DNA of 64,000 bases, taken from positions 2,687,617 through 2,751,616 of the forward strand of contig NZ_CP013251.1 of the NCBI RefSeq assembly GCF_001583435.1. Reading direction: 5' to 3'. A program made the translations under genes and the position numbers. The notes under the pieces were generated by a model that saw only the letters and a list, made by a program, of their open reading frames with translations, was not told the origin of the DNA and did no database searches. The DNA comes from Endozoicomonas montiporae CL-33 (lineage in GTDB: Bacteria; Pseudomonadota; Gammaproteobacteria; Pseudomonadales; Endozoicomonadaceae). Shown here one piece after another: positions 28,251 to 61,106 of this stretch (position 1 is the stretch's first letter; each line of letters opens with the position of its first letter).

Positions 28251-28292
28251 GCCCGGGTGGTGAAATTGGTAGACACAGCAGACTTAAAATCT
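28251..28292 (+). pseudogene. leuZ: 5' half of host tRNA-Leu (UAA), cut by the prophage
   Basis: GCCCGGGTGGTGAAATTGGT, then AGACACAGCAGACTTAAAATCT: acceptor strand, D arm and the anticodon stem-loop up to the attachment core. The missing part lies at 61049-61106, 32.8 kb away. Joined, the two form a full tRNA: acceptor GCCCGGG with TCCGGGC (one G-U), anticodon stem GCAGA with TCTGC, variable-arm stem CGACC/GGTCG and T stem GCCGG/CCGGC. Confidence 0.92.
28280..28292. other. attL core
   Basis: AGACTTAAAATCT, identical to attR. It corresponds to the anticodon loop and flanking stem of tRNA-Leu(UAA), itself nearly symmetrical. An inverted copy of its centre (GATTTTAAGT, 28322-28331) lies 30 bases inside the prophage. 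Confidence 0.88.
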
Positions 28293-28390
28293 AAAAAACG
28301 GGTAACTACATCAGATACCAATTGATTTTAAGTTTCTATGAAAGCCTAGAGCCATAAGGGTTTTAGTGATTAACAGTTTCGTTATGCAGC

Positions 28391-28465
28391 GGTGCCACAA
28401 AGGCGCCAACCATACGAAAAGTGGCACACGGTGCCACAAAGGTGCCACTCGATTGTTGTGGCACT
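28391..28465. repeat. GTGCCAC repeats, probable integrase arm sites (left)
   Basis: GTGCCAC or its complement occurs five times: 28392, 28421 (complement), 28431, 28442 and 28458 (complement). The 28431/28442 pair is spaced 11 bases, like the pair at the right prophage end (60983/60994). Such repeats flanking both cores fit arm-type binding sites of a tyrosine recombinase. Confidence 0.6.
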
Positions 28466-28480
28466 ACAAAGCAGATTTTT

Positions 28481-28567
28481 GCCCGAGTGGCGAAATTGGT
28501 AGACGCAACGGACTTAAAATCCGTCGGTAGCAATACCGTACCGGTTCGATTCCGGTCTCGGGCACCA
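28481..28567 (+). tRNA. Prophage-borne tRNA-Leu (anticodon UAA)
   Basis: 87 bases with encoded CCA. Acceptor GCCCGAG/CTCGGGC, D arm, anticodon arm ACGGACTTAAAATCCGT, variable arm CGGTAGCAATACCG, T arm ACCGGTTCGATTCCGGT. All stems pair. It differs from the disrupted host gene at many paired positions with matching changes, so it is not a recent duplicate. It lies inside the prophage 190 bases from attL and no terminator is seen between it and the host tRNA promoter, so it can be read from the host operon. Confidence 0.95.
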
Positions 28568-28611
28568 CTTTTAGGACATCTACCAGCCTAAAGTGTGCAA
28601 ACAACAGATTA

Positions 28612-28643
28612 AGCCGACAACCCGCATGGTTCTCGGCTTTTTT
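28612..28643 (+). terminator. Terminator after the prophage tRNA-Leu
   Basis: Stem AGCCGA (28612-28617) and TCGGCT (28633-28638) followed by TTTTTT. It ends the transcript that would contain tRNA-Gly, tRNA-Cys and the prophage tRNA-Leu. Confidence 0.78.
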
Positions 28644-29005
28644 TGTATCTGGAATAACACCGCACTGCCATTTATTGCACTTTGCTGCACAGTTGGCAGT
28701 AAGTACATTGCTGCAAGTCCCCAGTAATGGCGGGCTTCACGCCTACCATTGCACCCACCCGCAGCGTGCACAAAAACAGACCAAAAACACCGCAGGCGTG
28801 GGGTGGAGGAGTGCGTTTTCTTGGTCGCTGGCTTTTTGTTCAGGCGTTAAATTCTCTCCGGGTTCTCTGGTGGCAGTCCGGCACGCGGTGCGGGATTGGT
28901 TCATGGTTTGCTGGTATGATTCAGGGTCTTATATGACGTTCGTCATATATTTTATTCTATCGTCAGTGTGCAGCGGGTTTTCCTTCTCGTTATGATAGGA
29001 ACGTC
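28644..29005. other. Prophage left-end non-coding stretch
   Basis: No supported gene. A palindrome ATATGACG-TT-CGTCATAT (28931-28948) lies 58 bases ahead of the next gene and may be an operator or promoter element. Confidence 0.4.
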
Positions 29006-29452
29006 GTGTCTGTTTTGTTGTCCTGGGGGCTTTGTATGTTTGCTTATTTGTTAATGGGCGTTGGTGCCATTCTTGCGCTGGGTACTGTGTTGATTATCGT
29101 CAACCCTGAAAAGTTCGGGCAGCCTGATATGGGGCGTAAGCGTGCGGTTAAGTTTTTAGTAGGTGCCTTGGTTATGGTTGGGATCGGTTACAACCTGAAT
29201 CTGGATAAAGTAGAAGGTCCAGCACTTTCTGCGGTACTGGAAACTATCCCGCAGGGTGATGCCCATAGTTGGCAAACAGGGCAGATTAATAATGGTGTGG
29301 CTGTTGTGGTGAATAACCATGCAGGCTATTGGGTTAAGAATGATGAAGTCTATGCCGTCAATGGTATAGCCAAAGGCTTGTCCAGCTTGTCAGATGTTGA
29401 TTATGCACCTGCGGGTATTGAGTGGGGCGATATACAAAAAGCAGTTCAGTAA
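29006..29452 (+). CDS. Small membrane protein of unknown function
   Basis: 148 residues; GTG start at 29006 with AGGA five bases upstream (an internal ATG at 29036 is possible). Two membrane helices (about residues 10-32 and 47-62) are followed by an 85-residue soluble domain (NGVAVVVNNHAGYWVKNDEVYAVNGIAKGLSS...). No family is recognised. It is the only gene between the phage tRNA and the late operon and is transcribed rightward, against that operon. It has its own terminator, so it looks like an independently expressed prophage accessory ('moron') gene; that reading is inference. Confidence 0.6.
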   Translation: MSVLLSWGLCMFAYLLMGVGAILALGTVLIIVNPEKFGQPDMGRKRAVKFLVGALVMVGIGYNLNLDKVEGPALSAVLETIPQGDAHSWQTGQINNGVAVVVNNHAGYWVKNDEVYAVNGIAKGLSSLSDVDYAPAGIEWGDIQKAVQ

Positions 29453-29455
29453 TAA

Positions 29456-29484
29456 AAAAGCCGGGATCTCACCCGGCTTTTTTA
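29456..29484 (+). terminator. Terminator of the small membrane protein gene
   Basis: Hairpin AGCCGGG-ATCTCA-CCCGGCT followed by TTTTTTA, immediately after the stop codon. Confidence 0.85.
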
Positions 29485-29645
29485 TTAATCCAGCTCAACC
29501 ACTCCCGCATGTAACAGCAACAACCGCCAGGCTGAATAAGGAATCGGTCTTTATGCACCCATCGTTTTTACTTCCGGTTAGTGCCGGGCGGTGTGCCCTT
29601 GCGTTGATTGATATATCAGGGCATATTGCCCTAATATACAAGTAC

Positions 29646-30467
29646 TTAAAACGAGAAACCTTCCTGCGAAACCTGCCCGTCCAGATGTTCGTCCTGTTCC
29701 CAGTTTCCATAAACCAGCTCGACACAATCGCTGGCATTTTGCGCTCCGCCTACCGTGTATTTGTAATCGATCTCACGAATAAACAGGCCATCAAATACCC
29801 GGCGTATGTCGGGGTGGTCGTTGATGCTGATAATCATCCGGCCTTGAATGGTTTTAGCCAGTTCTGCCATGCGTTCGTAATTCTCAAATGGGAAACCAAC
29901 GCCATAGCCTTCGGTCTGCCAGTACGGCGGATCGCAATAGAAAAGAGTGCCGGGCCTGTCGTATTTCTCGATGGTCTTTGCCCAGTCCAGATTTTCAATG
30001 GTCGCATTCGCCAGGCGAAAATGCGCGTCGGCGAGATCCTGCTCCAATGTGAAAATATTAAAACGTGGTCGGCTTGTAGCACTGGTGCCAAAGCTCTGCC
30101 CTTCCACTTTTCCACCAAAGGCTAATTTTTGCAGATATAAAAAGCGGGAGGCTCGCTGAATATCGGTTAATGTTTCCGGCTTTGTTTTTAACAACCATTC
30201 ATAATTCTGGCGGCTGGTCAGAGTCCATTTAAATTGTTTATACAATTCTTCCAGATGATGTTTTACCACCCGGTATAAATTCACCAGGTCACCATTTACA
30301 TCATTTAAAACTTCGACCTTTGATTCTTCTTTCAGAAAGAACAACGCGGCAGCGCCACAAAATGGCTCGACATAGCAGGTGTGATTAGGAAACAGCGGCA
30401 GGATATGCGGGGCTAATTTACGCTTGCCGCCAATCCATGGAATTAGCGGCTTGAAGTTACGGGACAT
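29646..30467 (-). CDS. dam: DNA adenine methyltransferase (Dam family)
   Basis: 273 residues from the ATG at 30467, 11 bases after the stop of the spike gene's restored frame; the open frame extends to 30521. Motif I PWIGGKRKL near the N terminus, EPFCGAAALFF, NDVNGDLVN and the catalytic FYCDPPYW (DPPY) identify an N6-adenine methylase of the Dam/DpnM type, presumably GATC-specific. It is the last gene of the late operon. Possible roles are protection of phage DNA or tuning of host mismatch repair; neither is shown by the sequence. Confidence 0.85.
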   Translation of the reverse strand: MSRNFKPLIPWIGGKRKLAPHILPLFPNHTCYVEPFCGAAALFFLKEESKVEVLNDVNGDLVNLYRVVKHHLEELYKQFKWTLTSRQNYEWLLKTKPETLTDIQRASRFLYLQKLAFGGKVEGQSFGTSATSRPRFNIFTLEQDLADAHFRLANATIENLDWAKTIEKYDRPGTLFYCDPPYWQTEGYGVGFPFENYERMAELAKTIQGRMIISINDHPDIRRVFDGLFIREIDYKYTVGGAQNASDCVELVYGNWEQDEHLDGQVSQEGFSF

Positions 30468-30477
30468 GAAAAAACAA

Positions 30478-31193
30478 CTACTCCGTGATGGGATCCAGTC
30501 TGCTGGATTTAATAGAGCCAATCTGGTTGGCGGCTCCGCTAATTATGCCGGATTGATCCGGCTTAGGCGTACTACCACCGTTATGGGTATGGTTGGCTAT
30601 AGTGGTCAGGGCGGTTTCCATTACGGTTAAAGCATCAGACAAAATCCGCAGCACATTCTCGCTGTCACTGCCCAGCCAGGTCTTGGGGCTTTTTAACAGC
30701 TGCTTGACCTTGGCCTGGCATTCCGGATTTTTCCGGCGCTGTCCTTGATATTTTCCGGCGTTGCCCGATGCCAGTTGTCGTCTGAATCATAGCCCTGGTA
30801 GATTGCTGCCGATTTTTGCCAGCGGGCTTCGTCCTTGTCTACCGTTGGCAGTTTCAGGCCGATGGGCAGGGTGGAGCGCACATAGGGCTGGTCGGGTCTG
30901 CCAAAGGCAAAAGTGTATTCAACAATAGAGCCGGGATCGGGCAGGTTGTAAAAGCCGCGATGGTTGCCAGCGTAGGGGATGGCCACCGGAACGTCGGGCA
31001 ACAGTTCGCCCTGTTCTTCACCATGCTGGTTTAATGGCTGGATATCCACGGCAAAACGGGGGCGATCCATTGTGCAGTCGCCACCGTCTTTCGGTGCATC
31101 CGTAATCTTGATTACCCGGGCCAGCATGGGCAGGTGGTAGCCGTAGTTCAGCTCTGGCCAGAGTCGCATCACAATTCTTTTAATGGCGTCCAT
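30478..31193 (-). pseudogene. Baseplate spike protein (P2 gpV / Mu gp45-like), frameshifted
   Basis: The first frame (31193-30693) reads MDAIKRIVMRLWPEL...IYQGYDSDDNWHRATPENIKDSAGK, an OB-fold spike N terminus. In the -1 frame the sequence continues NPECQAKVKQLLKSPKTW, then LGSDSENVLRIL and the typical spike tail ANHTHNGG to a stop at 30478. The two meet at a run of five A (T's at 30728-30732); one more A would restore the frame. Either a homopolymer deletion has broken the gene, or it is a sequencing error. The start overlaps the upstream gene by 25 bases. Confidence 0.75.
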
Positions 31194-31867
31194 GTAATCA
31201 CCATGCTGTCGTTGCTGCAGGTCAGGCAGTTGATAATGCCGCGATTGAATTGCACACCCGGGCGCAGGCTGGGTGCCATCATCATGCGGGCGCTGTTGAA
31301 GGCCAGGTGTTCGGTGAAAAACTTGTCGGGGATCTGCACTGGTCTTGATGCCCAGCGGCTACCACTCCAGCTGCCCACATAGATCGAACCATCGCCCTGT
31401 TGCTGCCAGATATATTGGGGGATATTGAACACCTGCCCGATAGCGTCCATGGCCATATACCCACCTCCGATATGATGGAAATGGCTGGCCTGTTTCCGGG
31501 TATAGCTGGCGCTGGAAGTCACAAAAACCAGTTCGGTCTGCTGGCTGATTTTTGCCAGAACATCCTTCAGGGAAACATGGCGCAGCCCCATAGGCAGCGG
31601 GCGATTCAGGGCGGCAGACAACTCCCGGCAAAACAGCAGCTGCTGTTTAGCGTTGACAGTGGTGGGCGGCTTGTCGATATAGCCAACAAACAGCCGGTAC
31701 AGCTCCATACCCGACCAACCCACCGAAAACTGCACGACTCCCGTCAATGGTTTATCAGATTGCACTAAAAAACGGGCGCGTCCCGGGCTGGACAGTTCCA
31801 GCCGGGTCTCATCGCTGATCAGTCCAACCTCTTCACCATTAACCAGTAACTGCTTGATGATTTTCAT
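31169..31867 (-). CDS. Putative baseplate hub / late-control D-like protein
   Basis: 232 residues. Order (before the spike gene and after the baseplate-complex gene) and content (MKIIKQLLVNGEEVGLISDE, VGYIDKPPTTVNAKQQLLFC, LKDVLAKISQQTELVFVTSS, YIWQQQGDGSIYVGSWSGSR) resemble gpD/gp44-type hub proteins, which form the ring connecting tail tube to spike. It is shorter than P2 gpD. The assignment is mainly positional. Confidence 0.6.
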   Translation of the reverse strand: MKIIKQLLVNGEEVGLISDETRLELSSPGRARFLVQSDKPLTGVVQFSVGWSGMELYRLFVGYIDKPPTTVNAKQQLLFCRELSAALNRPLPMGLRHVSLKDVLAKISQQTELVFVTSSASYTRKQASHFHHIGGGYMAMDAIGQVFNIPQYIWQQQGDGSIYVGSWSGSRWASRPVQIPDKFFTEHLAFNSARMMMAPSLRPGVQFNRGIINCLTCSNDSMVITWTPLKEL

Positions 31868-31882
31868 GGCAATCCTTTGGCG

Positions 31883-32407
31883 TTATGCCAGTGCGTCGTC
31901 CAGTCGTTGCAATATCCGAATAGCCAGAGACTGCTGTTCTTCCTGGTTAGTGGGTGGAGGTACATCGCCCACGGTTTCACCATCGGCACTCTGGTCACTG
32001 GCGGTTTTCTGGGGCTGTCGTTGCTCGGTCTTTTCCGGGATAGACAGGTATTCTGCAAGGGTAAAATTCACCTGCCAGGCTTTCAGGTTATCAGCCTGGC
32101 TTACGGTGAAATTATCCATAAACGTCACCTGCCGCACCTTCATGGCGGCGGCGGTTTCGTTGACGATATCGTACACCTGCAAATTGCCCGCACTGTCCAG
32201 GGCAGTGGCCAGCTCCCGCAGGCGGGTCAGATCGGCGCTGTTGTCGAAAGGAATCTGCAGACTGACGGATAGTGTGCAGGGTTTAATGCCTTCCTCCGAA
32301 CGGGTGGAGCTGCTGGTCTGGCCAGACAGCTCCTTGGTTTCTATTCGGAAATTGGCTCTGACAGTTAAGTTAAATCCTGACAGGTTATTATTGTTTAACA
32401 AAATCAT
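31883..32407 (-). CDS. Baseplate complex protein
   Basis: About 174 residues from the ATG at 32407, which overlaps the stop of the S74 gene (ATGA). It starts MILLNNNNLSGFNLTVRANF and contains LSVSLQIPFDNSADLTRLRE and VRQVTFMDNFTVSQADNLKA, like the 'baseplate complex' or DNA-circularisation-type proteins near hub genes in P2/HP1-like phages. The C terminus is Gln/Pro-rich (about 130-160). Assignment is moderate. Confidence 0.55.
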   Translation of the reverse strand: MILLNNNNLSGFNLTVRANFRIETKELSGQTSSSTRSEEGIKPCTLSVSLQIPFDNSADLTRLRELATALDSAGNLQVYDIVNETAAAMKVRQVTFMDNFTVSQADNLKAWQVNFTLAEYLSIPEKTEQRQPQKTASDQSADGETVGDVPPPTNQEEQQSLAIRILQRLDDALA

Positions 32408-32952
32408 AGTGATGCCAAAATAAACATGCAAAGTTCATCATAGCGAATAGAATAACGATCTCCGGCCTCTGCAATTATATGGCCCTCGTCATCAACGTCT
32501 TCATCCCATTCATCAAAGCAAAGAATCCCGTACTCAAACGCATCAAGCCCCGCATCTGAAAATGTTTTTTCAACTTCCTGAGCAATCACACCAATATGAG
32601 TTCTAGCCTTATTGCCTTTAATTTTTACTGCATGCTTGAAACGGTAAGCTTTAATTATTCCTTTGATTTTTTGAGCCACATCTTTTTCAATTACAGAAAT
32701 GTCTCGTAAATCCTGCTTGTTTCTTTCATCTGATGTTTGAATTATACCGCTGACAGTGTATACGTTATTCCAACGTGAACCGCTATTGCCTAAGTTAAAA
32801 CGTGTGTCAGTAGGTGCTACATCCCTAGTCCTAAAAGCAACTCTGTCTCCACTAGCATCATGAAAACGGATAGTGAAGTCCGCAACAGGGTCATAGCAGT
32901 TAACAAACAGCACAGTACGGGCACTATTGGATGCCAAGAATGGAAAAGCCAT
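32404..32952 (-). CDS. Peptidase S74 intramolecular chaperone protein
   Basis: 182 residues. A short beta-rich N terminus is followed by the S74 domain: TSDERNKQDLRDI (Ser and Lys of the self-cleaving dyad), AYRFKHA, THIGVIAQEVEKTF and the C-terminal SIRYDELCMFILASL. S74 domains usually sit at the C terminus of fibre proteins, help them trimerise and then cleave themselves off. Here the domain is a separate gene overlapping the fibre gene's stop by one base, so it may assist the fibre in trans. Confidence 0.82.
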   Translation of the reverse strand: MAFPFLASNSARTVLFVNCYDPVADFTIRFHDASGDRVAFRTRDVAPTDTRFNLGNSGSRWNNVYTVSGIIQTSDERNKQDLRDISVIEKDVAQKIKGIIKAYRFKHAVKIKGNKARTHIGVIAQEVEKTFSDAGLDAFEYGILCFDEWDEDVDDEGHIIAEAGDRYSIRYDELCMFILASL

Positions 32953-35867
32953 TAAACAACCCTCTTTATAGATACGAATAAATTCAAATTGGAACTATGC
33001 TTGTTTATCATTATCAGGTTCGGTCCCTTCTGATATATATTCACAAATCCGTCTTTAGGCTCTGATAGCTCATTGCTTTTCAATGGATAAACTCTATTGG
33101 TGTTAGCAAAGCCAAGAGGTGACTGATCACCTGAGTTCCCTGAAACCTCATACAAAACAACTGATGTTGCAATAATTCCGTTATTCTCTCCTACTATATC
33201 GACAATAGAGCATGTAGCAGCGCCATTGTTAAATGGTATCTCTATTGTGTTATTGCTGCTTATGTTCACAAAATATTGGTTTTCACCCGTTATGATGTAA
33301 TCATTTACAACTTTGAATGTTCGATTAGGTGTAGCAAACCCATACCATCCGGTATTAACTGTGTCATCTGCCGCAGACGTATAATGAACTATATTCCCTG
33401 ATAGTCTGCATTTAGAAAGTCTGACACTTGTAGTTGTACCAAATATTCCAACCTTTTGGCTTTTGGCTTTGTTGAAATGCACAGTGTTTCTTGTGACGTG
33501 TAGATTTTCTAGCACTGTGTCATCAGTTACTGTTATAAGTCCTATAAAAGCACCTTCTAATTCATAAGCGATATTTTCGCTAATAATTAGAGGCTCTTCT
33601 GCATTATAAATCCCACCTCGCAACTCTACGAAATGTTCTCCTTTTGTAATAGGTTTAAAAATATTTCCTTTGAAAATTCCTCCACGTATTTGCTGTAAAT
33701 AGAAGGAATATTCCATCGAGCCTGTATACTCATTTTTCAAAACGGAGGGCATATAATCTCGATAACTACCTCCTGTGTGGCAGTCATTTACATAATTATT
33801 AGAATATATAAGGTGGTATGCATTACCATGCCCGCCAAACCCATAAGATACCTGATCTCCATGGGGGTGTATGCCTTCGCCAGTGTAAGATACCCCTCCA
33901 CCTGTGATTCTGTTATCTCGTACTACAGAATATACAGAAAGAGCTGCTGCACCGGCTGTCGTAAACCCACACCTGCAAAATGAAATATCATTGTTCAGGT
34001 ATTGACACCTGTAGCTGGACACATCCAGCAGTCCATAACCAGTACCTCCATACCCACTGTGAAGTCGATTGGCTCCTTTGCTTTTACAGTTACGAATAAC
34101 TGATTTATATGAGTACATATATTTAAAGTTGGTTTCTGAAAAATTTTCAAAAGACCAATCTTCAACTGTGCTATCAGCGTTTTCTTGAAGCTGCAAACCT
34201 AAAAAACCGTCGTCTCCTGCATTTGCTGTTAAATGCTTATCTCTTGTTAATGTCACTCCCCCGGATAGAGACACAGTTAATGGCCTGCTGATTCTAACTT
34301 GGGTTAACTTATCTAACCGAAAAACATCCCCAACTTCTGGAGGTGTCAGCCATGTCGATTCACAAGTAACGATATTGGTTGATGGGTCATAATCTGTAAT
34401 ATTCCTGACTTCTCCTGAGTTGTTTCCGCTAATCCCTGTTATTGGATACATTGATCCTCGGCGGTCAGTTAATCCAGATACTTTGAATTGCGATGCGCTT
34501 ATTTTCTCTGTAACGGTAATGTTGAATGACTCTTCCGAAGGAAGCCATACAGGAGGAGCATCTTCGAGTGTAACTTTATTGCCTGAAATGGATGAAACCC
34601 TGCCCACAAACCCCATTTTCCAGAAACCACGATGATCGGTATCAATTAACTGATTTGAGCTAAAGATCGCTAAATCTCCGGGCTGTACATCGGTTGTGTC
34701 TTCCATGGTTACAGATGTGTCGTGTCTGTTAACTCCGTTTTTGACTAGGCTAAAGTCTTTGATTGAGCTTCCAGAAAGACGAATAGCTGCTTTATTAGAA
34801 TCAGGCTCACTTAATGTGCTATGCAGTATGGTATTTGAATCTCCTTTTATGGTCAGTTCTCCCGACATATTTAGAGATATTCTAGAGAATTCGTATACGC
34901 CTCTGGGAATACGAACCGTATACTTGTTACGTATTGCGAACTCAAAACACGCTTGCAACGCTGCTGTATTATCGGTAATGCCATTACCTATGGCACCAAA
35001 ATCACGTACATCTATCTCACCTAAAACTCTTTCAGTAAATAAACCATTTGTCCGCAACACCATGCGATCATCTGAAACAACTGAATTCGATGAGATGCTC
35101 GAAATTTTTTCTAAATAATGCTGCACTCCAGAATCATCAATATAATCCACCTGTTCCTGATCCGAAACCATCACATTAACCACCGGCTGAATGTCAGACA
35201 TGGCATTTCCCTGCTGGGAAACATCCAACCAGATAGAAGTCGGCGTATCAGAAACCAAAACAGACTTACCAGGATAATCAAAACGAATCCCAGCCACATA
35301 GCCTTCACCCGGCAGCAGCTCATAATACCCACCGGAGCCTTTAACTACTTTACATGCATCCCCATAAAACAGCTGTCGCCCAATTACATCCTGCGTCATC
35401 TGCCGGGATCGCCCGTCAGTACCATCCATACGCTGGGAAAAATCCACCATCCAAGATTCAGCAGGGATATGAATATCCCCTGTTTCCTGCGCTCCGGAAT
35501 ACTCCAGCAATAAGTTGCGGGTCAAGGCCATGGACGGGTCTTTGCCCTGGGTAGGCATGTAATTAATAGCGACCACGGTGTCGTCTGCGGAGCAGTACAG
35601 CCCCAGCCAGTTAAACTCGAAAGGATCACCACCAGTACCCATGTGCAGGGCATAAACAACAAGGTTCGGGTTAATGTAACCATGCTGGGAGACAGGTTCG
35701 TCCAGGACAATATGCTCCGCAGGCGGCAGCTGCTCGTTGCGGTCTACCGGCTTGCCCGGATCCAGACCGGGGATATTAGCCAGGATAACCCGGTCTATAT
35801 TCATTACCTCGCCATTGGCCTGCTTGGTGGCGATCAGGCTTTCCCCTTTATATGTAATTGCTGCCAT
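32952..35867 (-). CDS. Tail fibre protein with pectate-lyase-like beta-helix
   Basis: 971 residues. The N terminus (MAAITYKGESLIATKQANGE, to about 250) is the phage tail-collar/fibre attachment domain (DUF3751 type). From about 285 the sequence DVRDFGAIGNGITDNTAALQ starts a right-handed beta-helix of the Pectate_lyase_3 kind. The rest is Asn/Ser/Gly-rich. It binds or degrades surface polysaccharide of the host. The beta-helix part (about 33000-35100) is clearly more A/T-rich than its neighbours, suggesting module exchange. It is followed by the separate S74 gene. Confidence 0.85.
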   Translation of the reverse strand: MAAITYKGESLIATKQANGEVMNIDRVILANIPGLDPGKPVDRNEQLPPAEHIVLDEPVSQHGYINPNLVVYALHMGTGGDPFEFNWLGLYCSADDTVVAINYMPTQGKDPSMALTRNLLLEYSGAQETGDIHIPAESWMVDFSQRMDGTDGRSRQMTQDVIGRQLFYGDACKVVKGSGGYYELLPGEGYVAGIRFDYPGKSVLVSDTPTSIWLDVSQQGNAMSDIQPVVNVMVSDQEQVDYIDDSGVQHYLEKISSISSNSVVSDDRMVLRTNGLFTERVLGEIDVRDFGAIGNGITDNTAALQACFEFAIRNKYTVRIPRGVYEFSRISLNMSGELTIKGDSNTILHSTLSEPDSNKAAIRLSGSSIKDFSLVKNGVNRHDTSVTMEDTTDVQPGDLAIFSSNQLIDTDHRGFWKMGFVGRVSSISGNKVTLEDAPPVWLPSEESFNITVTEKISASQFKVSGLTDRRGSMYPITGISGNNSGEVRNITDYDPSTNIVTCESTWLTPPEVGDVFRLDKLTQVRISRPLTVSLSGGVTLTRDKHLTANAGDDGFLGLQLQENADSTVEDWSFENFSETNFKYMYSYKSVIRNCKSKGANRLHSGYGGTGYGLLDVSSYRCQYLNNDISFCRCGFTTAGAAALSVYSVVRDNRITGGGVSYTGEGIHPHGDQVSYGFGGHGNAYHLIYSNNYVNDCHTGGSYRDYMPSVLKNEYTGSMEYSFYLQQIRGGIFKGNIFKPITKGEHFVELRGGIYNAEEPLIISENIAYELEGAFIGLITVTDDTVLENLHVTRNTVHFNKAKSQKVGIFGTTTSVRLSKCRLSGNIVHYTSAADDTVNTGWYGFATPNRTFKVVNDYIITGENQYFVNISSNNTIEIPFNNGAATCSIVDIVGENNGIIATSVVLYEVSGNSGDQSPLGFANTNRVYPLKSNELSEPKDGFVNIYQKGPNLIMINKHSSNLNLFVSIKRVV

Positions 35868-35901
35868 GTTTCTCTCCCTAATCGTTCTACTGGCTTCGGC
35901 T

Positions 35902-36504
35902 TCAGTTCTTTATCAAGCTGGCGACGACGGTTGCCGTGTTCAGCGCCACTTCGTGCGCCTGAGATCTAATGCCGGGGTTCGGCATGGAGGCCACAGCAGT
36001 GCTGGCGGTGTGGGAAAATTCGCCACAGCGCATATACGCCAGTACCGGGGTCTCCAGAATAAAGTTGTACCGGCGGCAGGTGCGGCCATACATGCGGATA
36101 ATCTCCCGCAGCAGGTCGGGGTTGTCTGCCAGCTGGTTGTCGTCTAAATAAATATTGATGATGTCCCAGTCCCAGCCTTCCTGCCGCTCCTGGGTGGTGA
36201 TGTGCCCGATTCCGAGCCGTTCACAAATACGGATAAAGCCAGCGGTGCTGCCTGCATCTTTGGCGTTGATGTAAGCGAAGCTCACCCGCTTGCGGTACAG
36301 CCCCATGGGTTCACCGGCATAACGGGTAATGTCCCGTTGCCAGGCGATCAGCTCCAGAATGCCGGGGGAACAGGTCAGCGGATCCAGCTGCTGCAATGGC
36401 CAGGCTGTCCAGCTGGCCACACGCTCGAACCAGGTTTGTGCGCTGTTCTTCAGCTTTGTCAGTTCTTCACCGGACAGCCAATGTGGCAACTGGAGCTTGA
36501 TCAT
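35902..36504 (-). CDS. Phage tail protein I (P2 gpI-like)
   Basis: 200 residues; the family core LDPLTCSPGILELIAWQRDI, then YRKRVSFAYINAKDAGSTAGF, matches gpI, a baseplate wedge protein. It lies between gpJ-like and fibre genes, the canonical P2 order J-I-H. Spacing to gpJ is two bases. Confidence 0.82.
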   Translation of the reverse strand: MIKLQLPHWLSGEELTKLKNSAQTWFERVASWTAWPLQQLDPLTCSPGILELIAWQRDITRYAGEPMGLYRKRVSFAYINAKDAGSTAGFIRICERLGIGHITTQERQEGWDWDIINIYLDDNQLADNPDLLREIIRMYGRTCRRYNFILETPVLAYMRCGEFSHTASTAVASMPNPGIRSQAHEVALNTATVVASLIKN

Positions 36505-36506
36505 GA

Positions 36507-37688
36507 TCAGTACTCCAGCTTCACAGTCAGTTCGCCTAGTGTCGCCAGCTCAATGGCGGTGACAATATCGCGGTTTTCAAAGTCCAGGCTTTCAATCTCC
36601 GGAAAGGTGCGGTGCAGCTCCTGGGTCAGTTTGGAGAATGAAAAGCGGCTTTGTGGCCATGTCTGGGTCGGGCTGTATTCGTTGTTCTGGCGAAAGGCGG
36701 CGCGGATGTAATTTGCTACACCTTCCTGCAGGCCGGTGCGCTCCTGCGCGTTTAGATTGGCAACAGGCCAGACGGTGACAACCACATCGGTTTCCACATC
36801 GGGCATCGGGTAGCAGATCATGCTGTCGCCGTGACCGTGATAGCCGTTGTCGTCTACGTGCTGGTTGATATCGTCGATAAAGTCCTGGGGCGGTATGCCT
36901 GATTCGATCATGATGTAACAGTTGGCAGTGCCGGGGCCGCGTGGGGCTTCGTGCTCAAAATAGAGATAGTCGGTGCGGATCCCGGCAAATTCGCTGATGA
37001 TTTGTTTATAGGCTGCGTCGTGGTGGAACAGCCCCACGGCAGTAAACTGGTTGCGGCAGCGCAGGCGCAGTTCGTCGTCGCTCTCTTTATCTGCGCCTGG
37101 TGTGGTTAGCCATTCCTGCCCGTTGTTGACTTCGGTCACTCCGGCAATGTCTTCTGGCAGAACGGAGTAATAGCCCGGTGCCAGATTGTAGTTTTCGCCT
37201 GCTTCCCTGGCTTCGGCATTTACATCAACGGTCAGCTCGCCTTCGGGGAACTGGGTATCGGTCAGGGTGATCAGTTCGTACACCTGCCCGTTGATCGGCG
37301 TGGACTGCACGACAGTTCCCGCAGGGATGGAGACTGCGGTGCCGGTGCTTTCCCGGGTAAAGGTCAGCATGCCGATGGCTTTGGTGGCATCCTTGCGGAT
37401 CAGGTTCAGTGCCCAGGCGAGGATGTCCAGAAACATGCCTGTGGCTGTTTTGATAAAGCTGTTGGGCAGTAGCTGGTTAATCAGGAATTGCACCGTCCAC
37501 AGTGCGGGCTTGGTGACAATTTCAGAGATTAAGCGCCAGAAGGGTGACCAGCGGGAGTCGTTGCTGATCTGGCTGCCGTTGTCTTCGTTGATCTGATCCC
37601 ATTCGGCACGCATCTCTTCTTCGGTGGTTGGGATGCCTGCGGCCTGGACGATTTGTTCGAAGTCTTCCTGGTGGTTATTGATAGGCAT
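36507..37688 (-). CDS. Baseplate assembly protein J (gp47-like)
   Basis: 393 residues of the baseplate J/gp47 family: AIGMLTFTRESTGTAVSIPA, GTVVQSTPINGQVYELITL, NLAPGYYSVLPEDIAGVTEV and GADKESDDELRLRCRNQFT are typical. It forms the wedge of the contractile-tail baseplate. It overlaps the upstream DUF2590 gene by 14 bases. Confidence 0.9.
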   Translation of the reverse strand: MPINNHQEDFEQIVQAAGIPTTEEEMRAEWDQINEDNGSQISNDSRWSPFWRLISEIVTKPALWTVQFLINQLLPNSFIKTATGMFLDILAWALNLIRKDATKAIGMLTFTRESTGTAVSIPAGTVVQSTPINGQVYELITLTDTQFPEGELTVDVNAEAREAGENYNLAPGYYSVLPEDIAGVTEVNNGQEWLTTPGADKESDDELRLRCRNQFTAVGLFHHDAAYKQIISEFAGIRTDYLYFEHEAPRGPGTANCYIMIESGIPPQDFIDDINQHVDDNGYHGHGDSMICYPMPDVETDVVVTVWPVANLNAQERTGLQEGVANYIRAAFRQNNEYSPTQTWPQSRFSFSKLTQELHRTFPEIESLDFENRDIVTAIELATLGELTVKLEY

Positions 37689-38022
37689 TAATTTCCTCCA
37701 GGGTAAACGGCCAGAGTATTGGCCCCATGGTTGTGTTTGCGGTCAGGTTGATCACTTCGGTGCGGGGGCGCTCGATCTTCACGGTGCCAGGAACAATCCG
37801 CACGTCTTCTTCCACCATCAGCTCCAGCCGGTTCATATTGTTCAGCCAGTTCTCACGGCTGCGATCTGCGACCAGTTCAATCAAGATTCCGGTTTCCAGA
37901 ATCATGTGCTTAATGTCCTGGGCGATGCTGGCGCGGTCATCGGTGTAGGCAGGCATACCCGCAACATCCAGTGCGATGTCGCGGTCTTTAATTAAAATGT
38001 CGATCCACTGTTGTTCTGACAT
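37675..38022 (-). CDS. DUF2590 baseplate protein (gpW/gp46-like)
   Basis: The frame runs 37675-38040. The ATG giving MSEQQWIDILIKDRDIALDV begins at 38022 and overlaps the tape-measure stop (ATGTCAGAACAA region). About 115 residues with DRASIAQDIKHMILETGILI, characteristic of DUF2590, found at the gpW position before gpJ. Probably a baseplate wedge subunit. Confidence 0.75.
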   Translation of the reverse strand: MSEQQWIDILIKDRDIALDVAGMPAYTDDRASIAQDIKHMILETGILIELVADRSRENWLNNMNRLELMVEEDVRIVPGTVKIERPRTEVINLTANTTMGPILWPFTLEEINAYQ

Positions 38023-39746
38023 TACCCACCCCACTGCCACATCATTTCTTCGATGTTGTGGCTGTTGATCTGCTGGCTGGTTGTTACGTTGACGGTATTG
38101 CCACCGCGATTGCTGTTGTTGGTGACAGCGTTGTTGATGGTCTTGGAAATACCGCCAGCAGGTACTGTGGAAGTTTTCGGAGTGTCCAGGCTGGCTACTG
38201 TTGGTGCGCTGGCTCCATCTTCGCCGCCGATATTTATACCGGGGATTCGGTTCAGCATGCGGATCACCCAGCCTGCGGCATCGCCCAGAAGTCCGAAAAC
38301 GCTGATATCTCCCAGAGATGCTTTAAATTTGTCCCAATCAATCACAGCGGCTGCTATGCCAGCAGACAGAGCTGCAACAAGTCCGACAAATAGCCCGATG
38401 GGGTTGGCAAACATCACAAGGTTTACCGCCAGCATCACTGCCCGGAAGGCAACCAGGGCACCTTTCATCAAATTAATGGCTCCCATGGCAATGGCAGTGG
38501 CAGTGCCATAACCCATCATTGCAATCTTGGCGATACCACTGGCCAGAGTCATGGCACCCAGCGCGGCGGTCATAGCGGTAATGGACAACACGCCATAACC
38601 AATCCAGCGGGTGATATTGGGGAATGTGCGCGTCCACTGGGTAAGTACACTGGCACCGTCGGCCATCTTGCTAACCAGCGGATTAATAACGGGTAACAAG
38701 GCAGAGCCAAAACCAATCCGCACCGCATTAATACCGGCGCTTAATTGCTCCCAGGGATCCACCATTGCGTCGGCCATCAACATGGCCTGCTCCATTCCCT
38801 TGGTTTTGCCCAGCTGGTCGATGCTGCTGCCCAGTGCGTTGGTCTGGTTCATTAACAGAGTGACCATCGCAACGGCTTCAGAGCTGCCGAATGCTTTGGC
38901 CAGCTCGTCAGTGTCAGCCACTGTCAGGCTATCGCCATAGCGGTTTTGCAGCTGGGTCATAATGTCCATTACACCCAGCAGCTTGCCTTCGGAATCGGTA
39001 AACGACATACCCAGTGCATCCTGAGCCTTGCCCACACCAGCCAGAAACGCCTTGTATTTAGTGGCGGCTTCAGAGCCGGACATGGTGGCCTGCATGGTGC
39101 CCAGAATCGCCATCTGTTCCGACATTTCGATGCCCATTGCAGTAGCCGACTTACCCAACGCACCAAAGGCGCTGGACATTTCGTTACCGTTGGTTTTGAA
39201 CATCTGCACGGCGCTGGCGGTCATGCCTGCCACCTGTTCTACCCATTCGGCTTTGCCCATCTTGTTGGCGGTATCGGAGAAAATTCCGTACATGGTGCCC
39301 ATGTAGTTGGTCACGGTAGCGGTGTCGGCTTTGGTGGCAGCAGCCAACACGCCAGAGGCTTCGGTAAAGGCCGACAGCTCACGGCCAGACAGCCCAGCAA
39401 TAGCGGACTGGATATCATAAGCACTGCTGACAAATTCGGCGGCGCTCTTGCCATAACTGGTGCTGAAATTCAGGGCGGTATCGGCCAGTTGATCCAGGGC
39501 ATTCTGCTGGACTCCCAGACTGGCCACTTCACCCATGGCGCGGTCTAACTCAATGGCAGGCATTAACATCTGCTGCATGGCAACACCGGCACCGGCCATA
39601 CTCAGGGCACCGGCACCAATATCACCAAAGGCGCTTTTTGCGCTCTGGGATACGGAATCCAGTGTTTTCTGAATCTTGCCAGCTGGCTCGGTTACCTGAT
39701 CCAGCAGGCTGATGCTAAACATCAGTTTTTCCAGCTTGGTTGCCAT
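38022..39746 (-). CDS. Tail tape measure protein (TP901 family)
   Basis: 574 residues. An N-terminal coiled-coil segment is followed by the TP901 core (ELDRAMGEVASLGVQQNALD, SSAYDIQSAIAGLSGRELSA, AATKADTATVTNYMGTMYGI). Hydrophobic helices lie at about 385-470. The C terminus has GGISKTINNAVTNNSNRGGN, typical of tape-measure tails. Length sets tail length: about 570 residues implies a tail near 85 nm by the usual 1.5 Angstrom per residue rule. It follows the frameshifted chaperone pair as in lambda and P2. Confidence 0.9.
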   Translation of the reverse strand: MATKLEKLMFSISLLDQVTEPAGKIQKTLDSVSQSAKSAFGDIGAGALSMAGAGVAMQQMLMPAIELDRAMGEVASLGVQQNALDQLADTALNFSTSYGKSAAEFVSSAYDIQSAIAGLSGRELSAFTEASGVLAAATKADTATVTNYMGTMYGIFSDTANKMGKAEWVEQVAGMTASAVQMFKTNGNEMSSAFGALGKSATAMGIEMSEQMAILGTMQATMSGSEAATKYKAFLAGVGKAQDALGMSFTDSEGKLLGVMDIMTQLQNRYGDSLTVADTDELAKAFGSSEAVAMVTLLMNQTNALGSSIDQLGKTKGMEQAMLMADAMVDPWEQLSAGINAVRIGFGSALLPVINPLVSKMADGASVLTQWTRTFPNITRWIGYGVLSITAMTAALGAMTLASGIAKIAMMGYGTATAIAMGAINLMKGALVAFRAVMLAVNLVMFANPIGLFVGLVAALSAGIAAAVIDWDKFKASLGDISVFGLLGDAAGWVIRMLNRIPGINIGGEDGASAPTVASLDTPKTSTVPAGGISKTINNAVTNNSNRGGNTVNVTTSQQINSHNIEEMMWQWGG

Positions 39747-45182: not shown

Positions 45183-46214
45183 TCAAGCCGGTGTTGCTTC
45201 TTCGTCTTTGATCACCACATTGGCTGCGTCAATGGCAGCAGCGGCATCAAAGTCTTCCAGCATGTAGGCTTCATTGGAGCTGATAAAATCCACGACCTGA
45301 TCGGATGCGGACTGATCTTCAGACTTACGACGCATCCGGCCTTCCTGATAATACAGATGCAGGTTGTCCAGATCGGTCACCATCACACCGTTTGCAGGGA
45401 ATCCGGGAACGACAATAGACGGATAGCCGCCATAGGATTTCTCCAGCACCATGATGTTGGATTTCTCGGTGGGCTGTTGGGCAAACTTTGCCAGTGCCTT
45501 GCCACTGTCGTGAGCAATCAGGCCGCGACCAACAATCGCCACTTCATCACCGCTTTTGCTGGCATCACCGATCATGGAGCCAACGCTGTAAACCAAATGA
45601 TCCAGATTCTTAAAGTCGCCCGCTGCGCCCAGCGTGATTTGACCGGAGTCTTCCTGTGACTCGGTCATGAAGTTCTCAGGGTGATGGGTTTCCAGCAGGT
45701 GCAGCCAGCCTTTGTTTACATCCTGTAGCAGTGGGTTGGTTTCGCGGTCAGTGTTTTTTTCAGCACTGGAACCATTAAAACCAATCAGAATACGATCCAG
45801 CCCGATACGCTGGTAAACCGCATTCATATACAGTTCCATGAAATTGTCGAAACGTGCCCAGGAGTCCAGTGTTTCGTAATCAAACGCCACGTCAAAGTTG
45901 GTTTGCTCCAGACGGTATTCGATACCTTCCGGGGCTTTCATCTTGGTGGGTTTCCGTTGTTTGGTGCCATCACTGGTGTCGGTTCGGCTGGCCAGTGTGC
46001 TACTGATCCGCACTCTTGATGGCTTGCCTACCTTGTCCACTTTGGGCAGGGTAGTAATGCGATTCAGAAAATCATTAGAATCCAGTACTGCCTGATTTAG
46101 TGAAATCTCCATCGGAATGGAAACGTTAAAACGACGGGTAACGTCTGTTACTCCGTAGGCTTTAGCCATGGCCTGTTGCAGCATGGCGAATTGTTTGACT
46201 GTGCGTTCCAGCAT
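45183..46214 (-). CDS. Major capsid protein (P2 gpN-like)
   Basis: 343 residues of the P2 capsid family (HK97 fold): SIPMEISLNQAVLDSNDFLN, LASRTDTSDGTKQRKP, DRILIGFNGSSAEKNTDRET, NPLLQDVNKGWLHLLE. Ribosome site GAGAGG before the ATG. It follows the scaffold gene as in P2 (O-N-M-L). Confidence 0.92.
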   Translation of the reverse strand: MLERTVKQFAMLQQAMAKAYGVTDVTRRFNVSIPMEISLNQAVLDSNDFLNRITTLPKVDKVGKPSRVRISSTLASRTDTSDGTKQRKPTKMKAPEGIEYRLEQTNFDVAFDYETLDSWARFDNFMELYMNAVYQRIGLDRILIGFNGSSAEKNTDRETNPLLQDVNKGWLHLLETHHPENFMTESQEDSGQITLGAAGDFKNLDHLVYSVGSMIGDASKSGDEVAIVGRGLIAHDSGKALAKFAQQPTEKSNIMVLEKSYGGYPSIVVPGFPANGVMVTDLDNLHLYYQEGRMRRKSEDQSASDQVVDFISSNEAYMLEDFDAAAAIDAANVVIKDEEATPA

Positions 46215-52207: not shown

Positions 52208-52211
52208 CTGC

Positions 52212-53834: not shown

Positions 53835-53929
53835 TGTCAGGGTTATCACCACCGGTAAAAGGTAACCGGCCTGCTTTCGCAGCCCCAACAAGCCTGTCAT
53901 TAACTGGCAGGTATGCTGAATTCTGGCAC

Positions 53930-53951
53930 AAAAAAAACCGCATGTCGGCGG
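53930..53951 (-). terminator. Possible attenuator in the same leader
   Basis: On the minus strand CCGC-CGACAT-GCGG is followed by eight T. This intrinsic-terminator shape lies 156 bases before the winged-helix gene, so it may reduce transcription entering that gene. Confidence 0.5.
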
Positions 53952-54015
53952 CTTGTGCTGCCCTTTTAGACCGGGGTGATAATCCGGATTCCAGATTTTG
54001 CTGGAACGATTAGAA

Positions 54016-54852: not shown

Positions 54853-54857
54853 GGTGC

Positions 54858-58537: not shown

Positions 58538-58709
58538 GGTCGTCTCCTTGAGCTTCTACTCTAAGGTCTGCCCAGCTTTTTAGCTGGGGAAAATCTTTCG
58601 CAAACAGTTCAAATGCAATCTTGGCTGCTGATTTCTCATTGCATGTATAAACACAATCCACCAGTTCCCCCTGGGGCGTGGTAACACGAAAATATTGATA
58701 CTGATTCAT
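58524..58709 (-). CDS. Hypothetical small phage protein
   Basis: 61 residues, MNQYQYFRVTTPQGELVDCV, a small alpha/beta protein. Overlaps the primase-helicase start by 14 bases and the excisionase-like gene by four. No family recognised. Confidence 0.5.
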   Translation of the reverse strand: MNQYQYFRVTTPQGELVDCVYTCNEKSAAKIAFELFAKDFPQLKSWADLRVEAQGDDHVSF

Positions 58710-59017
58710 GCCATCGCCTCTTCAATAGCTGCGCGGGCTTCGTTCCGCAGATCCCGACTGGCGGTCAAATGATGGTTGGTTTTGTAAATGTGCTGATTGA
58801 TCAGGGAGGTTGGCCAGCGTTCTTGCCCGGCCACTTTGACGGCTTCGGGGAACTCTCCGGAACGGATCCGCTTGCGCAGGGTTTCGCGGGTGACTTTCAG
58901 ACGGTCACATACCTCGTCTCTGGTTAAGAACTCATCGATGCGAATATCCACGTCATTGCTACTGGTCAGTAAGCGGGCAAGGCGATTAATAAATAAAGTC
59001 ATTTCATCTTCCGTCAT
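58706..59017 (-). CDS. AlpA/MerR-type helix-turn-helix protein (excisionase or Cro-like)
   Basis: 103 residues. IDEFLTRDEVCDRLKVTRET, then LRKRIRSGEFPEAVKVAGQE, then RWPTSLINQHI, is the AlpA/Xis-type winged helix (about 27-75). It is the first gene of the leftward early operon and divergent from the repressor, so it is placed to act as the Cro/Apl-like switch protein and/or excisionase, as Cox and Apl do in P2 and 186. Confidence 0.72.
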   Translation of the reverse strand: MTEDEMTLFINRLARLLTSSNDVDIRIDEFLTRDEVCDRLKVTRETLRKRIRSGEFPEAVKVAGQERWPTSLINQHIYKTNHHLTASRDLRNEARAAIEEAMA

Positions 59018-59187
59018 TGCAAAATATTCCCGAACTTGCTAAAAATGCCCTAGCTAGAAACGAAACACGCAAAAATAGGGTTAAACGTGCAAATATGGGC
59101 ATACATCCCAGATGTGAGAATATCATTTTCAGGAGGGATTACAACCCAGATTTGGGACGTTTTTGCATATATGATCGGGAGGGTTAG
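59018..59187. promoter_or_regulatory. Lysis-lysogeny control region
   Basis: Between the divergent excisionase-like and repressor genes. It contains several similar blocks: ATCCCAGATGTGAG (59107), ACCCAGATTTGGGAC (59147), CGCAAAAATAGGG (59069) and TGCAAATATGGGC (59088), pointing to a half-site close to CCCANAT. GGGAGGG before 59188 is the repressor's ribosome site. Confidence 0.6.
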
Positions 59188-59793
59188 ATGTACTACGAAC
59201 TAAAAACAATGGGTGCACGGATTCGATTTGTTCAGGAAAAGGTGGGCGGATCCAGTGCGCTGAATAAGCTATCGGGCGTTAGTGCATCACAGCTTTCTCG
59301 ATTGATACGGAACGAAATCCCTAATCCGGGATTAAATCAGATCCAGTCCATTGCAAAGGCGGGCGATGTGCCACTGGTGTGGCTGGTAGAAGGTGGTGAG
59401 CAGTCCGGGGTCGAAGGTGAAACAAAGAGCAACGGCTTTGTGCCTATTTCGTACTTTGATAATGGCAAGTCGCCCGTCATGCTGGAGCGCAGCTACCTGG
59501 TTAATGAAATACAGTCGAATCCGGACCACTGCGTAATGTTTCAGTCTGGTGAGGACTCCATGGCCAGTACTATCAGCAAGGGTGACAAAGTATTGATTGA
59601 TACCAGTCGCACCAGTGGTGATGGCATCTTTCTGGTGAAGATTGAAAACAATGTTTTTTTGAAGCGGTTGCAGTGGTTACCGGGTGCCGGTGTTGATGTG
59701 ATCAGCGATAACAGTTCGTACAAAAGTTATCAGCTAAAGCCGGAAATGGTGGAAGTCATAGGGCAGGTGGTCTGGATCGGGAGCCGATACTAA
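59188..59793 (+). CDS. CI-like repressor with S24 domain
   Basis: 201 residues. N-terminal helix-turn-helix (GGSSALNKLSGVSASQLSRL, about 20-39) and a C-terminal LexA/CI-like peptidase domain with Ser in GEDSMASTISKGDKVLIDTS (about 130) and Lys in NNVFLKRLQWL (about 163). It should repress the early operon and respond to RecA by self-cleavage; a cleavage site is not obvious by eye. Its stop overlaps the integrase start by one base (TAATG). Confidence 0.85.
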   Translation: MYYELKTMGARIRFVQEKVGGSSALNKLSGVSASQLSRLIRNEIPNPGLNQIQSIAKAGDVPLVWLVEGGEQSGVEGETKSNGFVPISYFDNGKSPVMLERSYLVNEIQSNPDHCVMFQSGEDSMASTISKGDKVLIDTSRTSGDGIFLVKIENNVFLKRLQWLPGAGVDVISDNSSYKSYQLKPEMVEVIGQVVWIGSRY

Positions 59794-60977
59794 TGGCCGC
59801 ACGCAAACGATACAAAATAGACCGGGGAAACTGGGTCGGACAATTCCCACCACCGGGCGGTTGGCAGCGTGGGCGCAATGGTATCCGGCGGGTGCTTTGT
59901 TCGGTGTCGTCTATCGCACACATGGATAAGGATGCACAAAGTTTCAAGCTGCATGACTTGTATGAAGAAGCAGCCAATAAGCTGAAGGGTGAGCAGGAGC
60001 AGAAAGAAGAAACCCGCAAAAAACAGAAAGCAGATAAGCGGCGGATGACGGTGCAGCAGGCACGCGATTTGTGGAAGGATGAATTATCTGTCACGAACGA
60101 TGATAAAACCGTGAAACTGTATGTCCGGTCAGTGGATTATTATCTGAAAGCACTGGGTAATCATGAAGTTCGGGATTTTAACCGGGGTTCAAATGTGAAG
60201 TTTATAAAGCACCTGAAACAGTTACCCGGTAAGCAGGCAGGCTCGACCATGGCACCAGCCTCGCAAAATATGCACGTCCGGCATTTAGGCATCTTTCTGC
60301 GTTGGTGTTATGCCCATGAAATTATTGATAAACGTCATGAGTTGAAAATGCCGCAGGTGCCTAAAAAGGATATGGAAACCTACTCGGTTTCAGAACTGGG
60401 TAAGGCAAAATCATTAATAATAAAACGCATGGACGAATACACACGGCCAAAAGATTTATGTGCAATCAACAATATGTACCGCGCATTTATGTTGGCAACC
60501 AATACACTGCTGCGACTGGGTGCCATTTGGTCGTTGCCACTGTCGGCCATTGACCTGAAACAGCGAATTATACGGATCCGCAATGTGCCAGAGCTGAAGT
60601 GGCAGCCTAAAAAAATGAAGTTCCCGAACAAGCCTATCAATGATCAGCTTTTTGAATTTTTAAAGCAGGATCTGGCGGGTCGTTCCAGGCGGGAAAAATG
60701 GTTTCTTGATAAAGGTGACGGCAGCCAGTGGCTAACCGATAGCAGCAATATCAGCCACTACGCTGCAAAGATTTTCAACGACGTTGGTCTGCCATACATC
60801 AAGCCATTCCACTGGGGATTCCGTGCCACAATGACAACGCACCTTTTAAATGAAGGTGTAAAGCCACAAATCGTCCAGCAACTTGCCGATCATTCATCAC
60901 TCGCCACCACCATGAGCTATTTCAATAGCCGCACCGTTGACCAGCGCGAAGCCACTAATGCCATCCCTGAAATTTAG
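59793..60977 (+). CDS. int: Tyrosine recombinase integrase
   Basis: 394 residues. Arm-binding N terminus, core-binding domain from about 90, catalytic domain from about 200: Arg in LLRLGAIWSLP, Arg in HWGFRATMTTHLL, His in QLADHSSLATT and the nucleophile Tyr in MSYFNSR. In the second box the usual H-x-x-R reads W-G-F-R with the His one residue earlier. It recombines the 13-bp core in the tRNA-Leu anticodon loop. Co-transcription with the repressor follows the P2 C-int arrangement. Confidence 0.9.
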   Translation: MAARKRYKIDRGNWVGQFPPPGGWQRGRNGIRRVLCSVSSIAHMDKDAQSFKLHDLYEEAANKLKGEQEQKEETRKKQKADKRRMTVQQARDLWKDELSVTNDDKTVKLYVRSVDYYLKALGNHEVRDFNRGSNVKFIKHLKQLPGKQAGSTMAPASQNMHVRHLGIFLRWCYAHEIIDKRHELKMPQVPKKDMETYSVSELGKAKSLIIKRMDEYTRPKDLCAINNMYRAFMLATNTLLRLGAIWSLPLSAIDLKQRIIRIRNVPELKWQPKKMKFPNKPINDQLFEFLKQDLAGRSRREKWFLDKGDGSQWLTDSSNISHYAAKIFNDVGLPYIKPFHWGFRATMTTHLLNEGVKPQIVQQLADHSSLATTMSYFNSRTVDQREATNAIPEI

Positions 60978-60982
60978 TCGTG

Positions 60983-61001
60983 GTGCCACTTTGGTGCCAC
61001 T
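60983..61001. repeat. GTGCCACT pair, probable integrase arm sites (right)
   Basis: Two GTGCCACT copies (60983 and 60994), 11 bases apart, sit 48 bases before attR. They match the repeats at the left end. Confidence 0.6.
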
Positions 61002-61048
61002 ATTAAAAACCTATCTCTGGAAGTATTGATATAACTGATTTACACATG

Positions 61049-61061
61049 AGACTTAAAATCT
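61049..61061. other. attR core
   Basis: AGACTTAAAATCT, identical to attL, followed by the 3' part of the host tRNA-Leu gene. Confidence 0.88.
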
Positions 61062-61106
61062 GCCGACCGTTAGGTCGTGCCGGTTCGATTCCGGCTCCGG
61101 GCACCA
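61049..61106 (+). pseudogene. leuZ: 3' half of host tRNA-Leu (UAA)
   Basis: From the core: TCTGC closes the anticodon stem, CGACC-GTTA-GGTCG is the variable arm, GCCGGTTCGATTCCGGC the T arm and TCCGGGCACCA the acceptor end with encoded CCA. Its partner is 28251-28292. It has no promoter or 5' half next to it, so it cannot give a tRNA while the prophage is present. Confidence 0.92.

Follow-up and report, generated by a model that had tools for sequence, protein, structure and literature searches.

The 64,000-bp window analysed here, bases 2,687,617-2,751,616 of the single-contig genome of Endozoicomonas montiporae CL-33 (5,430,256 bases), contains a 32.8-kb P2-like prophage, hereafter el1 (28293-61048). 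The prophage splits the host gene for the leucine transfer RNA (tRNA) with anticodon UAA, tRNA-Leu(UAA), rebuilds neither half of it and carries a complete tRNA-Leu(UAA) of its own. We interpret this arrangement with high confidence as a case of tRNA-dependent lysogeny, in which the replacement tRNA would make the integration tolerable.

Analysis of the attachment sites revealed that the host gene is cut at the anticodon loop. The 5' half (28251-28292, plus strand, 42 nucleotides) lies at the left attachment site (attL) and ends with a 13-bp core, AGACTTAAAATCT, while the 3' half (61049-61106, plus strand, 58 nucleotides) lies at the right attachment site (attR) and begins with it. The two copies of the core (28280-28292 and 61049-61061) correspond to the anticodon loop and three stem pairs of tRNA-Leu(UAA), and the identity extends zero bases on either side. 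When joined, the halves give an 87-nucleotide sequence that matches at 100% the intact tRNA-Leu(UAA) gene in four other genomes of the family (37 searched, 35 matched, including that of the window), so the bacterial attachment site (attB) is genuine and not a chance resemblance. The half-gene follows a host tRNA-Gly(GCC) (27936-28011) and a host tRNA-Cys(GCA) (28117-28190), both called on the plus strand by ARAGORN. The same order of Gly, Cys and intact Leu is found in 24 of the 30 tRNA-Leu(UAA) loci returned from family genomes, 11 of these 24 having a second tRNA-Cys behind the intact Leu gene. ARAGORN detects no tRNA at either junction, and after the core at attL the prophage reads AAAAAACGGG, with no tRNA 3' half, unlike an ordinary tRNA-restoring phage attachment site (attP). 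These results bear out exactly the initial annotation of this DNA, which had described a tRNA-Leu cut in its anticodon arm and restored on neither side. The right flank of el1 gave no match in the comparison of flanks.

The complete prophage tRNA-Leu(UAA) (28481-28567, plus strand, called by ARAGORN) begins 189 bp inside attL and shares only 78% identity with the host gene, in agreement with the full and different gene announced at about 190 bp in the initial annotation. Its best match among the tRNA-Leu(UAA) genes of 369 genomes of the class reaches 93%. Between the core and this gene, repeats of GGTGCCAC in both orientations (28390-28464) form putative arm-type sites of the integrase, and two further arm-type repeats, TGGTGCCACT, lie on the integrase side of attR (60981-61001, plus strand). 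The phage tRNA is thus placed just outside the arm repeats of attP and points in the direction of the host cluster. It is followed by a strong hairpin and a T run (28611-28642, plus strand), the likely terminator already proposed in the annotation; the fold of 28604-28650 has an energy of -19.7 kcal/mol and a z-score of -6.7. The scan for terminators and promoters did not return this hairpin, the loop of which is too long for that scan.

No other tRNA-Leu(UAA) was found in the CL-33 genome by DNA similarity, by a pattern search allowing up to three mismatches, by the Rfam tRNA model with ARAGORN run on its matches, or by a covariance model trained on Leu tRNAs, the two genome-wide covariance searches having scored 150 of 355 first-look candidates. 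The intact Leu genes found are six, namely the phage UAA gene, a phage CAA gene described below, GAG, CAG (twice) and UAG. In the fetched stretches and the window, ARAGORN called 105 tRNA genes, with neither tRNA-Ile(GAT) nor tRNA-Ala(TGC) among them, compared to 109 tRNA genes in the consulted part of the genome paper (PMC4781883). Given these two counts, a very odd extra Leu gene is still conceivable. The codon UUA is present in all 13 host open reading frames (ORFs) sampled, which were picked by length within the window; UUA and UUG together make up 28.9% of the Leu codons in these ORFs and 25.6% in 15 phage ORFs, one of which has no UUA.

A second prophage of the same genome, el2 (34.7 kb), interrupts the host tRNA-Leu(CAA) and has a complete gene for this tRNA behind GTGTCA repeats placed in the same way as the arm-type repeats of el1. 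Its cores start at genome positions 2,049,289 and 2,014,616 on the minus strand, each consisting of 13 bases with no extension on either side, and ARAGORN finds no tRNA at either junction. When joined, its halves match the intact tRNA-Leu(CAA) of one relative (G009) at 100% over 87 bases. The left flank of el2 is collinear with that of G009 up to the end of the core (86% over 760 bases); the right flank gave a match of 107 bases at 78%. The integrase of el2, at 2,014,688, is 55% identical to that of el1. A stretch of 8.6 kb (29559-38165 of the window, including tail fibre and baseplate genes) is common to el1 and el2 at 95% identity; elsewhere the two differ. With prophages in both tRNA-Leu(UAA) and tRNA-Leu(CAA), the only intact genes found for the two tRNAs reading UUA and UUG are prophage-borne. 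We also noted that the IMG/VR record IMGVR_UViG_2574179789_000007 (loci L115 and L133) combines the left end of el1 with the right part of el2 at 97-100% identity; it is a chimera of the two that probably arose through the shared 8.6 kb.

The same arrangement, which the initial annotation had suggested looking for in related prophages, recurs not only at this Leu(CAA) gene but also at the tRNA-Leu(UAA) of a second species. In the draft genome of E. ascidiicola AVMART05 (G026), contig C3 shows in order tRNA-Gly, tRNA-Cys, the 5' half of tRNA-Leu(UAA), GTGTCA repeats, a full tRNA-Leu(UAA) and a full tRNA-Cys. A relative (G020) provides the empty site, being 97.5% identical to G026 over 1,293 bases, up to where the core ends, and having intact Leu and Cys genes from there on. 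The phage Cys gene of G026 is identical to the Cys gene of G026 upstream of the insertion, and the spacer between the phage Leu and Cys genes differs from that of G020 by one base in nine. The E. ascidiicola element therefore carries a copy of the operon tail (Leu and Cys) from which its insertion separates the operon. A search of the G026 draft at E<=1e-6 did not find the 3' half expected at attR. In the three replacing attL sites read, the anticodon of the phage tRNA is that of the broken tRNA (UAA/UAA, CAA/CAA and UAA/UAA).

Searches with the el1 integrase gave matches at E<=1e-3 in 14 of 57 genomes, close in nine of these, including the genome of the window. Read from the tRNA halves, the targets of these integrase relatives include tRNA-Thr(UGU), tRNA-Leu(CAA), tRNA-Leu(UAA), tRNA-Arg(UCU) and tRNA-Met(CAU). 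Five other elements could be read at both ends, and all of them rebuild their tRNA: those of G005 (Thr-UGU), G030 (Leu-CAA), G024 and G031 (both Arg-UCU) and G387 (Met). These elements resemble el1 in their integrase family, in the use of the anticodon loop and in their GTGTCA(C) arm-type repeats. They differ from it in carrying the tRNA 3' half: their attL has an intact tRNA followed by the repeats, and a second copy of the 3' half is present at the integrase end. No second cognate tRNA is found at their left ends.

In a tree of 20 integrases, four replacing ones lie on one side of a branch with support of 100/99. The replacing plan is seen in el1 and el2, and we infer it for the G026 element and for the contig YOMI1, the latter from a phage-side tRNA-Cys that, by eye, has no GTGTCA repeat pair behind it. 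Outside this clade are seven rows labelled canonical and nine of unassigned plan. A 41-row tree keeps the replacing clade (99/96) and adds to it five further proteins without site assignment. Fragmentary or interrupted integrases (L131, a fragment; L132, with 10 stops; G031, split; G367, in fragments) and rows repeating others (L115, L124-L126 and L128-L130) were left out of the trees. Rooting with P0056 and P0057 proved unreliable, with branch lengths of 3.2 and 7.5 and root support of 69/66, so that a change from rebuilding to replacing is just the likelier direction.

The YOMI1 contig (34,000 bp, G015) was also considered as a circular phage, its ends overlapping by 36 bp. The overlap falls inside tRNA-Cys, a gene repeated in the operon of relatives, which makes an assembly break more likely than a circular phage.

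The integrase had no match in the phage collection, and a single-sequence search of viral contigs returned no relative. Alignment-based searches gave 10 loci in viral contigs and eight in genome contigs, the alignment of the replacing clade alone adding no new viral locus. With few candidates scored per genome, no integrase at E<=1e-40 was found outside the genome of the window among 369 genomes of the class, and seven at E<=1e-30 were found among 390 genomes of the order; the family is accordingly bounded loosely. Further loci came to light. The viral contig IMGVR_UViG_3300032373_000056 has related integrases near both ends (L117 and L118), the first of them followed by a tRNA-Met 3' half and GTGTCAC repeats, and probably represents tandem prophages at tRNA-Met. 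In G009, about 34 kb separate the intact tRNA-Leu(UAA) from a 30-base repeat of its 3' end (L204 and L205, at 5967195 and 6000958), probably the trace of another element type that uses this 3' end. In G001, where this integrase has no match, 38 kb of contig C77 separate an intact tRNA-Leu(CAA) from a 3' half (L201 and L202), an arrangement probably due to a further integrase type with a rebuilding plan at tRNA-Leu(CAA).

These observations can be joined in a mechanism. Integration through the 13-bp core would cut the host tRNA at the anticodon loop, and the phage would need no matching 3' half, any Leu tRNA that the host can charge being sufficient. The phage tRNA would be expressed in the lysogen, either through transcription continuing from the host cluster or from a promoter of its own; it would supply the decoding of UUA, and the lysogen would hence depend on it for viability. 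Excision would make the host gene whole again. For this reason, the event expected to harm the cell is the loss of the phage tRNA alone and not the loss of the prophage by clean excision; that losing prophage tRNA expression may be harmful, as the annotation had suggested, is plausible for the decoding of UUA. The absence of decay in the two halves suggests a recent insertion or repeated excision.

Several points weigh against this interpretation or narrow it, in addition to the scoring of 150 of 355 tRNA candidates mentioned above. A promoter scan of the stretch between the Leu half and the phage tRNA (28293-28480) found none, and the stretch from tRNA-Cys to the Leu half is occupied by hairpins, among them a strong one with a U-rich arm at 28193-28224. 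Transcription of the phage tRNA is for these reasons assumed. The initial annotation had placed it downstream of a host operon promoter with no terminator between: a candidate promoter does lie at 27639, in a scan that expects one by chance, and the hairpin at 28193-28224 leaves the part about the terminator uncertain. As leuX is dispensable in Escherichia coli, the host tRNA-Leu(CAA) may be non-essential, and the word 'dependent' is weaker for el2. The G026 integrase is split and located on a different contig (C24), where no tRNA half is seen behind it before a masked stretch; it is presumed to belong to the attL on C3. Among the relatives, the label 'canonical' is incomplete for G176, in which an intact tRNA-Met stands at left but the 53.5 kb examined show the 3' half no second time, and was given to L117 and L119 solely on the basis of a tRNA 3' half with arm repeats after it.

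Three other explanations were weighed. Many phages carry tRNAs, and the el1 gene could be an ordinary translation helper for lytic growth that shares the anticodon of the target by chance, in line with its closer similarity to other gammaproteobacterial genes (93%) than to that of the host (78%). The agreement of anticodons in all three replacing attL sites, for two different anticodons, makes this very unlikely, as do the position of each copy immediately after the arm repeats, its orientation, which is that of the host gene, and the fact that just the replacing elements fail to rebuild their target, the five rebuilding relatives having no second cognate tRNA at their left ends. The complete gene might instead be a moved or duplicated host gene, with the half as debris of an earlier element in a tandem or remnant insertion. 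For the E. ascidiicola Leu-Cys unit, a spacer that is nearly the host's own does indicate a probable origin from an Endozoicomonas operon. In el1, however, the full tRNA matches the host gene at only 78%, inspection by eye of the 300 bases behind it shows no pair of arm repeats, and the halves, 33 kb apart, join to the exact host gene, which renders such a history highly improbable.

An assembly error, or a misjoining of two prophages such that the halves are truly adjacent, would be favored by the 8.6 kb shared by el1 and el2 at 95%, by the IMG/VR record chimeric of both, and by two gaps in the assembly that the genome paper places near 1.6 and 2.8 Mbp, with the end of the window at 2.75 Mbp (PMC4781883, available part). 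It is hardly credible, as the genome is a PacBio assembly reported there to agree well with an optical map, the sites of el1 and el2 each have their own matched halves and cores, and the same plan is seen in a different species with an empty-site partner. Taken together, the recurrence of the plan at a second tRNA and in a second species, with a matching anticodon each time, supports the proposal of the initial annotation that the replacement tRNA makes integration tolerable; the annotation did not name the known system, tRNA-dependent lysogeny.

Comparison of the anticodon stems shows that the phage copy and the attB core have different bases at pair 29-41 in three of three cases, with pairing kept. 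An altered stem may keep the spare tRNA from serving as attB for the integrase. However, when loci of the family are compared two by two, this pair differs anyway in 52% of 378 comparisons for Leu(UAA), where a locus with two stems was omitted, and in 7% of 406 comparisons for Leu(CAA). The phage stems also occur elsewhere, with ACAGA at two more UAA loci and AGTGA at a single CAA locus (L195), so the difference is a hint only. A wider scenario, which we put forward tentatively and hold to be somewhat doubtful, would be that the stem was recoded so that neither the phage's own integrase nor those of its kin can use the spare as attB, pairing and decoding being kept; that two phages thereby took over all UUR-leucine decoding in one host; that a sister phage rescues the whole operon tail (Leu and Cys); and that the step from rebuilding to replacing occurred once within the integrase family.

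The P2-like nature of el1 is supported by a Pfam scan of ten of its proteins, which gave a P2-family capsid, a GPO scaffold, a gpP-like terminase, a portal (under the Pfam cut-off, with 36.1 versus 39.1 bits), baseplate J, a tail fibre and Toprim/primase-like, repressor-like and integrase proteins. The P2-family major capsid protein (PF05125) is encoded at 45183-46214 on the minus strand. At the right end, an S24/helix-turn-helix repressor-like protein (59188-59793, plus strand; PF00717, with an HTH_3 match just below the cut-off) lies next to the tyrosine integrase of 394 amino acids (59793-60977, plus strand; PF00589 and homologues), which reads towards attR. In the E. montiporae genome paper, el1 and el2 are both listed as prophages (PHAST regions 2 and 3), el1 being region 3, at 2717260-2741388, and the available part of that text makes no mention of split tRNAs (PMC4781883).

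Upstream of the intact tRNA-Gly, two degenerate, spaced tRNA-Gly copies are present at 27719-27931, the second scoring 29.6 bits with the Rfam model and neither being called by ARAGORN; the host cluster seems to have grown through duplication of a tRNA-Gly unit, followed by decay. A Gly-Glu tandem array of the same genome (4049500-4053450, L057) contains extra low-scoring tRNA-like units (22-32 bits) amid intact genes, which are degenerate copies as in the Gly cluster of the window. Two minus-strand ORFs of 482 amino acids (10881-12329 and 61602-63050) have the same inner ORFs and appear to be two copies of a single insertion sequence; the second of them ends about 500 bases behind attR.

tRNA-dependent lysogeny, as defined in the available text of Guerrero-Bustamante and Hatfull (2024, PMC10865867), involves a short core, a tRNA that is not rebuilt, a cognate phage tRNA and a proven need for it. 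The actinobacteriophages Fionnbharth, LeBron, Cain and Gaia are examples, and cases outside Actinobacteria are said there to need study, their frequency being one of the questions raised. The same source names prophage Lj965 of Lactobacillus johnsonii, where the tRNA is not rebuilt and a cognate one is encoded. In prophages of two Sinorhizobium meliloti strains resembling Mesorhizobium phage Lo5R7ANS, tRNA-Leu(UAG) is broken and replaced by a gene closer to those of unrelated Alphaproteobacteria, according to the part of PMC11476347 consulted; these differ from el1 in their alphaproteobacterial hosts and in the anticodon. In our searches of the literature on tRNA-dependent lysogeny no gammaproteobacterial case came up, though one may still be in print, and no listed title named Endozoicomonas; the word was also absent from the matches listed in a search combining Endozoicomonas, prophage, tRNA-Leu and integrase.

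Like the actinobacteriophages described in PMC10865867 (available text), el1 has a tyrosine integrase and an attB in a host tRNA gene that it does not rebuild, and carries a cognate tRNA. The 13-bp cores of el1 and el2 fall within the 8-17 bp of their Table 2, and Gaia uses tRNA-Leu-CAA, the same tRNA as el2. Unlike them, el1 has a gammaproteobacterial host and P2-type structural genes, its tRNA lies just behind attP in the direction of host transcription, two such prophages occur in one genome, and one relative carries the next tRNA of the operon. The need for the tRNA was shown experimentally in the actinobacteriophages, whereas we infer it for el1. What appears new relative to the published text, on the sequences compared, is the gammaproteobacterial P2-like lineage, the two cases in one genome covering the UUR codons and the rescue of an operon tail. 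tRNA-dependent lysogeny would thus extend to P2-like phages of Endozoicomonas, el1 and el2 residing in a coral bacterium, and G020 and G026 supply a pair of empty and occupied sites. If the reading holds, a bacterium in which the reading of UUA and UUG rests on two prophages would be a clean natural case of phage-host dependence. In the actinobacteriophages, relatives within the same integrase family also rebuild the tRNA, and the evolutionary relation between the two modes was called unclear in the consulted text (PMC10865867); the family of el1 likewise holds both plans, with the replacing elements in one clade, and so bears on the question raised in 2024 of how replacement relates to tRNA-restoring integration.

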